A DNA stretch of 64,000 nt. Origin: Poseidonibacter ostreae (GTDB lineage: Bacteria; Campylobacterota; Campylobacteria; Campylobacterales; Arcobacteraceae). The notes beneath the pieces were generated by a model, which was not told the origin of the DNA, did no database searches, and was given only the letters and a program-made list of their open reading frames with translations. This document shows, piece by piece, positions 53,567 to 57,902 of this stretch. Location of the stretch: NCBI RefSeq assembly GCF_009208075.1, contig NZ_WFKJ01000004.1, positions 1-64,000 on the forward strand. The letters are read 5' to 3'. How positions within the stretch are numbered: position 1 is the stretch's first letter; each line of letters starts with the position of its first letter. A program made the position numbers and the translations under genes.

Positions 53567-54223
53567 TTATATTAGTTTTACATTCTTATTTAAAGAATAC
53601 CCCATTCCTTTTGTTATTACTATTGAATCATTTGGTATTTTTTTTCTTAGCCTTTTTATCATTGCTCTAATATTTGTAAGATTAGTGTCATCACCTTCCC
53701 ACACATACTCTGAGATCTCTTCATAACTTGCTACATGATGCAGGTTTTTTGAAAAAAGTTCTAAAAAAAGTATCTCTTTTTTTGTTAATTCTATCTCTTC
53801 TTTATCTTTATACAAAATATGATTTATAAAATCAAATTCATAAACCTCATCAAATTTTAGAAATCTTCTTTGTATTACACATAATTTTTTTACTTTTTGA
53901 ACTAATTCTAAGATATAAAAAGGCTTTTTTATATAATCATCACAACCCAATTCATAGGATTTTTGAACTTTTTCCAAGTCATGATTTGAACTAATTATAA
54001 TCACAGGTGTATCTTTATGATTAATTCTTAATAATTCAAGAAGTGAAATACCATCAATATTAGGAACATTAATATCTAAAATAAAACAATTATATCCATT
54101 ATCAAGAACAGCTAAAGCCTCATCTCCATCTATAAAAGTATCAACTTTATAACTCTCTTTTTCTAAAGCCATTTTCATAACATTTATTAGTCTTTCATTA
54201 TCTTCAAGAATTAATATTTTCAC
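53567..54223 (-). CDS. OmpR-family response regulator
   Basis: A 218-residue regulator: receiver domain (about 1-115) with phosphoacceptor D50 (FILDINVPNIDGISL), K101 region (YIKKPF) and acidic pair E7-D8, then a winged-helix DNA-binding domain (about 130-215, ELTKKEILFLELF and IRAMIKRLRKKI). It overlaps the kinase gene by 4 nt. The downstream DASS transporter gene is divided from it by the kinase, and 11-bp direct repeats before that transporter are a likely target. Confidence 0.93.
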   Translation of the reverse strand: MKILILEDNERLINVMKMALEKESYKVDTFIDGDEALAVLDNGYNCFILDINVPNIDGISLLELLRINHKDTPVIIISSNHDLEKVQKSYELGCDDYIKKPFYILELVQKVKKLCVIQRRFLKFDEVYEFDFINHILYKDKEEIELTKKEILFLELFSKNLHHVASYEEISEYVWEGDDTNLTNIRAMIKRLRKKIPNDSIVITKGMGYSLNKNVKLI

Positions 54224-55569
54224 TCTACATTCCCTAAAATCATTTTAAAACAAGCTCCATTATTAATATTTTCAACTTCGATTTTACCATCCATTTTATC
54301 TTCTATAATCATTTTTGCCATATACAGACCAATTCCATGTCCATCTTTTTTAGTAGAATAATAAGGTTTGAAAATCTTTTTTATTTTAGCTTTTTCAATT
54401 CCACCTGCATTATCTTGTATTTTTATAATTAATTTATCATCTTCATTATAAAACTCTATATCTATTTTCCTATTTTTCAAATCATTTTTTAGAAGTTCAT
54501 CTTTAGCATTATTTATAATATTTAAAGTAGATTGCATAAACTCATTTCTATATCCATATATATTCGTATTTGTATTTTCAAAAACTTTTATATCTACATC
54601 TATATAGTTATATTTGATATTATGACTTACAATCTGTAAAATTGAATCAATAGACTCTTTTGCATCAAAGACCTTCTTTTCATTTGAGGGAACAATAAAG
54701 TTTTGAAAATCATTAATTGTTTTATTCATATAATCAACTTGTGTCATTATATCTTTTACATAAGATTCATCTTCATTAGTATTAGAGTTTGAACTATAAA
54801 AACTCTCTTGTGCTATTGTTGTAATTTCAACTAAAGGCGATTTCCATTGATGTGCAATTGAGGAAAATATTTCTCCAATTTCTGCAAGTTTTGATTGCTG
54901 TATTACAAACTCTTGATTCTTTTCACGCTCTAACTCAAACTCTTTTTCTTTTGTAATATCAGTAAAAATAGTAACCGTTCCTGTCTCTTTTGTTTTACTA
55001 TCACAATACGAAGCTTGTTTTATAAAATAAATTTTCTTTTCATTCTTTGATGTTTTAAATTTAAAAAGAGTATTTAGCTTCTTATTCTCTTTATATTTAT
55101 CAAATATTGATAAAAGTTTTAAGGCATTTTCATTATCTTTAAAATCTTTTAATTTCTTACCATAAATATCTTCACTTTGTAAACTAAGGAAATTACAAAA
55201 CTTTTTATTTGAATCAATAATTTTTCCATCTTTATTTTGCCAAAATATTGGACTTTCAATAGCATTTAATAATACTAAATCAAACTCTATTCTTTGAATT
55301 AACATCTTCTCTGTTTTTTTACGTAAATATATATTATGAAATAAACCAATTATTAGAAGAACTAAAATAGGAGATATTGTAAAAACGAAATCTATTAAAC
55401 CTCTATTTTTATCATAAAAAGTCAATCTTCTATTTACAATTTCATACTCATAAGGTACTTGATTTACTGCAAGTATAAATTGATCTAATTTTTTAGCATC
55501 AAATACATAATCAAAATCATTAAAGTTTTTAATCTCGTAGTTTTTATTTTTTATAATATCCAAAGCCAT
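54220..55569 (-). CDS. Histidine kinase, C-terminal part of a frameshifted gene
   Basis: The frame holds a membrane helix (about 60-81), a PAS domain (about 90-205, with IFWQNKDGKIIDSNKKF), the HisKA H-box with H240 (SSIAHQWKSPLVE), an N-box (NIINNAKDELL) and a GHGIGLYMAK ATP lid. The first ATG, 55569, has no ribosome site and cuts into the sensor: in this frame upstream codons (IKKGSVGGKIVDLEKFG) complete the periplasmic domain of the next gene. It should be read as one gene with 55596-56402, joined at 55626-55632, about 725 residues in all. Confidence 0.85.
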   Translation of the reverse strand: MALDIIKNKNYEIKNFNDFDYVFDAKKLDQFILAVNQVPYEYEIVNRRLTFYDKNRGLIDFVFTISPILVLLIIGLFHNIYLRKKTEKMLIQRIEFDLVLLNAIESPIFWQNKDGKIIDSNKKFCNFLSLQSEDIYGKKLKDFKDNENALKLLSIFDKYKENKKLNTLFKFKTSKNEKKIYFIKQASYCDSKTKETGTVTIFTDITKEKEFELEREKNQEFVIQQSKLAEIGEIFSSIAHQWKSPLVEITTIAQESFYSSNSNTNEDESYVKDIMTQVDYMNKTINDFQNFIVPSNEKKVFDAKESIDSILQIVSHNIKYNYIDVDIKVFENTNTNIYGYRNEFMQSTLNIINNAKDELLKNDLKNRKIDIEFYNEDDKLIIKIQDNAGGIEKAKIKKIFKPYYSTKKDGHGIGLYMAKMIIEDKMDGKIEVENINNGACFKMILGNVE

Positions 55570-55595
55570 TAAAACAGAACTATTTCCAAACTTTT

Positions 55596-56402
55596 CTAAA
55601 TCAACAATTTTCCCACCAACAGAGCCTTTTTTATTAAAATTGAGTCTGTAATAAATACTGGAACCTTAGAGTTTTTTATAAACTTAGCAATTGCTTGGTT
55701 TTTATTTAGTTTTCCATCACTATTTTTATAAAAACGAATAAATAAAATTGCACTATTCTCTTCATATTTTGAAAATCTTTTCTCTAAATTTTTTAGATTA
55801 TCTTCTCTTAAATAAATTAATTCGTATTTATTATGAAAATTATCAAATAACTCTTTTATCAATGGTTCTGTATGTTTTGCATTTATGCTTTTATCATTTA
55901 TTACATATAGTTTTTTAATTGTTGGAATTATTGTCTCTATTAGTTTGACATTTGAATCTAAGTCTCTTTTTTCAAGTAAAGCTGAAACTTTATTTTCAAC
56001 ATTATATTTTTTTGCTTTTTCTTGAGAAAAGTTTTCAATTCCCACAGCTAAAATAGATTCTTTAGAAAAAAACTCATTGTAGTTTTCTAAAACAAAATCA
56101 TAAGCAAATCTATCAACAGCTATTACTAAATCATAATTACGATTTTGAAGTTGCACTTTATAAAGATTTTTTAAATTTTTATAATACTCTTTTGATGTAA
56201 TTCTTTTTGAATCCATATATAAAATATTAAAATCTATATCTTGATGTTTATATAATACTTTTTCTAATCCATAAACTATCTTATCACTAAACTCATAACC
56301 TTTGTGATAAGAGTTAATAATCAAAACAGAAGAATTTGCAAAAAGTAAAGATGAGAAAAAAAATGTTGATAAAAGGATGTTAAAAATTAATAGTTTTTTC
56401 AT
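55596..56402 (-). CDS. Periplasmic sensor part of the frameshifted histidine kinase
   Basis: A 268-residue frame with a signal peptide (about 1-22) and an ABC-substrate-binding-type domain (VLIINSYHKGYEFSDKIVYG, then VIAVDRFAYDFVL, LYVINDKSI, VPVFITDSI). It runs out in an unrelated tail, ALLVGKLLI-stop, after KK. A -1 shift there continues GSVGGKIVDLEKFG, the expected end of this domain, into the kinase. Standing alone it would be a truncated, secreted binding protein. Either the gene is broken or it is read by slippage. Confidence 0.85.
   Translation of the reverse strand: MKKLLIFNILLSTFFFSSLLFANSSVLIINSYHKGYEFSDKIVYGLEKVLYKHQDIDFNILYMDSKRITSKEYYKNLKNLYKVQLQNRNYDLVIAVDRFAYDFVLENYNEFFSKESILAVGIENFSQEKAKKYNVENKVSALLEKRDLDSNVKLIETIIPTIKKLYVINDKSINAKHTEPLIKELFDNFHNKYELIYLREDNLKNLEKRFSKYEENSAILFIRFYKNSDGKLNKNQAIAKFIKNSKVPVFITDSILIKKALLVGKLLI
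55626..55632 (-). other. In-frame A AAA AAG slippery heptamer at the kinase frameshift
   Basis: On the minus strand the six As and the following G are read in the zero frame as xxA AAA AAG, then GCT. A -1 slip gives AAA AAA GGC and restores the sensor-kinase frame exactly. This is the same heptamer as the E. coli dnaX frameshift site. No upstream ribosome-like site or strong downstream stem was seen, so a one-base A deletion (A7 to A6) or phase variation is equally possible. Confidence 0.7.
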
Positions 56403-56440
56403 AAAGCAATTATAGTAGATTATTGCTAACTATTAGATAT

Positions 56441-56477
56441 AAAAAAGGTAACAAAATAGACTTGTTACCTTTTTTTA
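56441..56477. terminator. Bidirectional terminator after the DASS transporter gene
   Basis: A 14-bp stem (56441-56454 with 56462-56475) and 7-nt loop, A-rich on one side and T-rich on the other. It lies between the transporter stop and the sensor-kinase start, so it separates the transporter transcript from the two-component genes. Confidence 0.82.
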
Positions 56478-56489
56478 AATATAGAGAGT

Positions 56490-57902
56490 TTAAAGAATTG
56501 AATATCCTAAAAGAACTAGTGCACTTAAATATATAACTCCAAATACTGCTCCTAATTTCCACCATGTTGCTTGTGAAATATATCCAGCTCCATACCAAAT
56601 AGGTGATGGTCCAGTTGCATAAGGTGTTAAAATCCCCATAAGTCCTAAAGAACCTACTAATAGTAATGCTAAAGGTTGAATCATCTCTGCAGGTAATAAA
56701 TTTGCTGCAACTCCTAAAAATAGTGGTAGTAGTGCAACTGTATGTGCAGTAACACTTGCAAAGAAATAGTGAAATACAAAGAATAACACAACTAAAAGTA
56801 TTACTATTGAAACTGGATCCATGCCAACTAAACCACCTGAAATTAAACCTGCTGCCCATTTTAAGAATCCAACTTGTTTTAAGCCAGACGCCATTGCAAC
56901 TAAAGTAGCAAACCAAATAAATACATTTATTGCAGCTTTATTAGTAATAACATCTTCCCATGTAATAACATCTGTTAAAACAAGTAAACATAATACTGCT
57001 AAGGCTGCTGTTGTGCCATTTACTCCAATTTGTTTACCAAATATCCACATAACAAGAGCAAGTATTCCAAGACCTAACATAATAAGCTCTTTTTTACTAA
57101 TAGGACCCATTGAAACTAACTCTTTAGCAGCCCAAGCAGGTGCTTCTGGAGATTTTTTTTGTTCAGGTGGGTAAACAATATATGTTAAATATGGAACTAG
57201 TAAAAATAAAGGAATCATTATAATTGCTAATGTACTAAACCATTCACCCCATGCAATTGTAATACCTGTACTTTTTTCTACTAAAGATACTGCTAATAAA
57301 TTTGGTGCAAGTGCTGTTAAAAACATAGAACTAGTTACACAAGTTGCGGCAATTGCTACCCAAGAAATATATGAACCAATTTTTCGAGGCTCATTATCTG
57401 GAGTTGAATTAAACATTTGTGGAATATTAATAGCTATTGGGAAAATAGTTCCCGCACTTCTTGCTGTATTTGATGGCATAAACGGTGCTAAGATTCCATC
57501 AGCAAAAGCAACTGCATATCCAAGACCTAGAGTCGTTTTCCCAAGAAGTTTTACTAATAATAAAGCTATTCTTTTACCTAAGCCAGATTTTCTATAACCA
57601 AGAGCGAACATAAATGCTGCAAAGATTAACCATATTACTCCATTTGAAAAACCACTTAAAGCCCAAGTTCTACTAGCTTTTGCAGTTTCACCTACAAGAC
57701 CAAAAACAGCTGCAAAAGAAACCCCTGTTAAACCAATTAATGCTGCAGGAATTGGTTCTAAAATCAATCCTACGATTACTCCTAAAAATACTGCGAAGAA
57801 ATAGTGTGCATTTACACTTAAGCCCTCAGGCGTTGGTAAAACAGCAACTACAATAGCTATTATAATTGGTAGTGCCATTTTCATATTGTTACTTAGTGTC
57901 AT
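56490..57902 (-). CDS. DASS family anion transporter (di/tricarboxylate type)
   Basis: A 470-residue inner-membrane protein with about 12 to 14 hydrophobic segments. It resembles the DASS/SLC13 group (SodiT1, CitT, TtdT): SNTARSAGTIFPI and MFLTALAPN in the first half and YATGPSPIWYGAGYI in the second. These carry sodium- or antiport-coupled dicarboxylates such as malate, succinate or oxoglutarate. Next to a two-component system, it is probably induced by its own substrate. The exact substrate cannot be told from sequence. Confidence 0.9.
   Translation of the reverse strand: MTLSNNMKMALPIIIAIVVAVLPTPEGLSVNAHYFFAVFLGVIVGLILEPIPAALIGLTGVSFAAVFGLVGETAKASRTWALSGFSNGVIWLIFAAFMFALGYRKSGLGKRIALLLVKLLGKTTLGLGYAVAFADGILAPFMPSNTARSAGTIFPIAINIPQMFNSTPDNEPRKIGSYISWVAIAATCVTSSMFLTALAPNLLAVSLVEKSTGITIAWGEWFSTLAIIMIPLFLLVPYLTYIVYPPEQKKSPEAPAWAAKELVSMGPISKKELIMLGLGILALVMWIFGKQIGVNGTTAALAVLCLLVLTDVITWEDVITNKAAINVFIWFATLVAMASGLKQVGFLKWAAGLISGGLVGMDPVSIVILLVVLFFVFHYFFASVTAHTVALLPLFLGVAANLLPAEMIQPLALLLVGSLGLMGILTPYATGPSPIWYGAGYISQATWWKLGAVFGVIYLSALVLLGYSIL

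Follow-up and report, generated by a model that had tools for sequence, protein, structure and literature searches.

A histidine kinase gene of the marine bacterium Poseidonibacter ostreae is divided between two reading frames beside an A AAA AAG heptamer, which raises the question whether the break is a recoding signal in use or a lesion that happens to lie next to such a motif. The gene lies in the window, i.e. the whole stretch of DNA analysed here, which comprises the first 64,000 nucleotides of contig NZ_WFKJ01000004.1 (assembly GCF_009208075.1). A sequence-only reading of this DNA had left four options: a programmed -1 frameshift, a phase-variable A run, a real mutation and an assembly error. 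The features of the locus are collected in Table 1.

Table 1. Features at the interrupted kinase locus, in window positions
Feature	Position	Strand	Description
OmpR/PhoB-type response regulator	53567..54223	minus	Partner of the kinase; intact; overlaps the end of the kinase gene
3′ part of the kinase gene	54220..55625	minus	-1 frame: end of the sensor domain, transmembrane helix, PAS, HisKA, HATPase_c
5′ part of the histidine kinase gene	55596..56402	minus	Open reading frame of 268 aa: signal peptide and most of the periplasmic PF04392-like (ABC_sub_bind) sensor domain
A AAA AAG heptamer	55626..55632	minus	In -1 slip phase; read ATA AAA AAG in the sensor frame
T run, place of the one-base difference	55636..55639	minus	T4 here, T5 in close relatives; from junction alignments and pattern searches
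DASS-family sodium-coupled anion symporter	56490..57902	minus	TIGR00785; directly upstream of the kinase gene

The two open reading frames jointly match a single intact kinase of ~727 aa in the relatives, in agreement with the earlier view that the sensor and kinase halves are one gene split by a single base. The 5′ frame is homologous to residues 1-267 of the intact 727-aa kinase of a sister species and ends at a TAG codon (55598-55596) after 13 shifted codons. The 3′ open reading frame (55569-54220, 449 aa) lies on the minus strand in a frame other than that of 56402-55596. Its ATG at 55569 was considered as a designed re-initiation start but finds no support, as it encodes an internal Met that is replaced by Ile in congener G001. 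By its domain order, the gene belongs to the histidine kinases with a PF04392 (ABC_sub_bind) sensor followed by a transmembrane segment, HisKA and HATPase. In profile matches, the HATPase domain of the window kinase scores above the cut-off and HisKA is weak, below its cut-off; the PF04392 domain falls just under the curated cut-off in the intact orthologue and above it in relatives. The AlphaFold model of the intact orthologue (mean pLDDT 88) has a type I-like periplasmic binding protein fold, and the predicted sensor fold has its best match in PDB 3lft and is also close to 3lkv and 6hni. Read without a shift, the gene would add 13 out-of-frame codons and stop, yielding a truncated, unanchored periplasmic fragment in which the last part of the sensor domain and all of the kinase would be missing. 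Such a product should be non-functional, because the binding domain would be cut off ahead of its final strands and helix and the membrane anchor would not be reached. A pattern search of the assembly found no second intact copy of the kinase.

The position of the lesion was determined by codon-level comparison of ~55 homologous loci, together with DNA alignment against the three nearest species. The alignment gap falls in the T run at 55639-55636, three bases upstream of the start of the heptamer, and not precisely at the heptamer as the sequence-only reading had placed it. Relatives read GAT TCA ATT TTT AAT AAA AAA GGT, compared to GAC TCA ATT TTA ATA AAA AAG GCT in the window; correspondingly, the junction DNA is ATTTTTAATAAAAAAGG in six congeners and ATTTTAATAAAAAAGG in the window. 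The three nearest species agree letter for letter over the stretch AATAAAAAAGG, the T gap excepted. Since the A run comprises six As in the window and in the relatives alike, the lost base must lie in the T run upstream of the heptamer, and a gap in the A run was rejected as the cause of the break. It had been supposed that a seventh A would bring the frame back and that counting the As in sister strains would reveal this; the supposition is not borne out, since all close relatives have six rather than seven, and the difference in length sits in the upstream T run. A search of all ten genomes of the genus found the five-T form in six and the four-T form in the window genome only. Congener G003 has an intact frame with a silent ATC at the junction, and the other two genomes, which are less complete, contain only distant paralogues. 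The frame runs uninterrupted across the junction in every homologue that was examined there, those of all congeners with an orthologue included.

The heptamer (55632-55626) fits the slippery pattern X XXY YYZ and lies in phase ahead of the stop; the earlier statement that its phase is correct and that the stop follows ten codons on is thus accurate. A -1 slip at this site would indeed restore the expected domain end, as had been claimed, giving KKGSVGGKIVDLEKFG where the relatives have KKGAVGGKIVDLEKFG, with two residues around the junction differing from the family (LI for FN). In the relatives, however, the same letters make up conserved Asn-Lys-Lys-Gly codons in another phase. The motif stands in slip phase here through the loss of the base just upstream and through that deletion alone, and any upstream one-base loss would put the Lys-Lys-Gly codons of the family into this phase. 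The sequence-only reading had named an intact frame and a missing heptamer in all relatives as evidence against its proposal; the intact frame was found, whereas the letters of the heptamer are present, though in the other phase. We therefore read the heptamer as ordinary coding sequence that was not selected as a recoding site.

The frequency of such motifs was estimated from the same AT-rich contig. Of random one-base deletions in its genes, 2.3% lead into an A_AAA_AAG in slip phase ahead of the next stop; for deletions within homopolymers of at least five bases the figure is 4.9%. Its 97 kb of intact coding sequence hold 23 slip-phase A_AAA_AAG sites, and at 89 further places AAAAAAG stands in the AAA AAA G phase, such that one upstream deletion would create a slip site. 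The heptamer beside the break is a mild coincidence, of about 1 in 20 to 1 in 40, that was noticed post hoc.

The signals that commonly accompany recoding were also sought. As the sequence-only reading had remarked, neither a stimulatory stem nor a ribosome-like site is apparent: there is no Shine-Dalgarno-like motif in the stretch upstream of the heptamer, and folding of the 73 nt that start at the heptamer does not exceed that of shuffled sequences (z = +0.24). The frame transition is not conserved, all homologues being intact at the junction. The site shares with E. coli dnaX the identical heptamer in the identical phase, but lacks its upstream SD-like site, downstream stem-loop and conservation, and it owes its slip phase to the adjacent deletion, unlike dnaX. 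The dnaX gene of the P. ostreae genome itself is one uninterrupted frame of 670 aa. A programmed -1 ribosomal frameshift that makes two products, as in dnaX, has the identity and phase of the heptamer in its favour and nothing further; no relative shows the break or the slip phase, the stimulators are missing and the loss of one T fully accounts for the change of frame. We hold this reading to be very improbable. The number of tRNA-Lys genes affects slippage at AAG. An Rfam tRNA search of the whole assembly found 27 tRNA genes with no tRNA-Lys among them, which probably reflects a limit of the search or gaps in the assembly.

A phase-variable locus, switched through replication slippage in either the A or the T run, is scarcely more credible. 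The difference does sit in a homopolymer, but all close relatives share A6 in the A run, the T run spans no more than four to five bases, and the short form occurs in no other member of the genus. Contingency tracts are generally much longer than T4-T5. Likewise, with six As the locus falls short of the roughly nine consecutive As or Ts from which transcriptional slippage is usually evident (PMC1088944). The tssM1 gene of Citrobacter rodentium, which is rescued by transcriptional slippage, is also interrupted close to a run of As, but that run has 11 As compared to six in the window kinase (PMC4256274). Of the four options left by the sequence-only reading, mutation or error thus stands, whereas the programmed frameshift and the phase-variable A run fall, given an invariant A6, a short T4-T5 run, a break that is not conserved and the lack of stimulators.

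We propose with high confidence that an ordinary kinase gene, with a PF04392-like sensor, transmembrane helix, PAS, HisKA and HATPase, has dropped one of five consecutive Ts in the window genome only, and that this singleton loss broke the frame beside an incidental heptamer. One genome is broken and the homologues are intact, which the criteria of Antonov et al. class as a singleton frameshift, ascribed by default to mutation or sequencing error (PMC3711429). The case belongs with singleton frameshifts with intact homologues, which represent recent pseudogenes or errors. It resembles the GeneTack-class singletons and recent prokaryotic pseudogenes in being confined to one genome with an unconserved break; these have no recoding signal beyond a heptamer, as here, and there is no substantive difference (PMC3711429).

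The age of the break bears on its cause. Against the three nearest species, the 3′ half has a dN/dS of 0.07-0.09, compared to 0.09-0.10 among those intact sisters, and the 5′ half 0.13-0.16, compared to 0.07-0.14 among the same species. Purifying selection on the 3′ half has thus continued. No other lesions were seen in the kinase gene, and this, together with the low dN/dS, led us to reject a long-standing pseudogene. Because constraint on the 3′ half matches that in intact relatives, the break is either very recent or erroneous, unless the gene still functions. We hold a real, very recent mutation to be the cause with confidence a little better than even. A sequencing or assembly error, in which case the genome truly has the T-run length of its relatives and an intact kinase, is quite possible but less probable. 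It would explain a singleton homopolymer break in an otherwise perfectly constrained gene; the assembly is a draft of 156 contigs, and homology-validated singleton frameshifts are expected to be mostly sequencing errors (PMC3711429). However, in a comparison with sister-species DNA that covered this one contig of 104.7 kb, the kinase is the sole broken frame among ~95 comparable genes, despite ~1050 homopolymers of five or more in the genes of the contig, and homopolymer errors would be expected in longer runs than T4-T5. With a single broken frame on this contig, the assembly is evidently not riddled with homopolymer errors, and systematic errors of this type were rejected. At ~84264-84292 of the contig, where adjacent genes end, one in-frame stop differs from G001, which is a difference in gene boundary and involves no frame shift.

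Spontaneous -1 slippage at the heptamer might also offset a real deletion in part and leave a low level of full-length kinase, although we consider such ‘compensatory’ frameshifting unlikely. In its favour are the phase of the heptamer, the high rank of A_AAA_AAG among shift-prone heptamers in E. coli (PMC4066793, PMC5009743), a slip product that departs from the family only at the two junction residues, and the constraint seen in the 3′ half, which some full-length kinase would maintain. Against this, stimulators are lacking, the presence of the heptamer needs no selection, and recency explains the constraint equally well. By analogy, a low leak-through of full-length kinase is plausible. A further suggestion, that reduced kinase function was kept after a fresh break with the Lys-Lys-Gly codons serving as a built-in A_AAA_AAG ‘safety net’, seems to us very doubtful.

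The surroundings of the gene point to its likely role. The region 53567-57902, with DASS symporter, PF04392-sensor kinase and OmpR/PhoB-type regulator, forms a conserved neighbourhood in Arcobacteraceae. The response regulator adjoins the kinase in nearly all loci fetched, and since both the symporter and the regulator are kept in related loci, it is reasonable to regard the symporter as a likely regulatory target of the kinase. Compared to the PF04392 sensor kinases of Arcobacteraceae and Sulfurospirillum, the window locus has the same domain order, adjacent regulator and DASS symporter, but only the window copy is broken. Some distant paralogous kinase-regulator pairs likewise lie near a DASS gene, which suggests that carrier-controlling two-component systems may form a family.

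With the singleton loss of one T as the preferred explanation, we infer that the kinase is functionally lost in this genome, apart from possible leak-through via spontaneous -1 slippage. More generally, finding a slippery heptamer next to a broken frame is no evidence of recoding in AT-rich, lysine-rich genomes, and it is base-by-base comparison with relatives that locates the true lesion.
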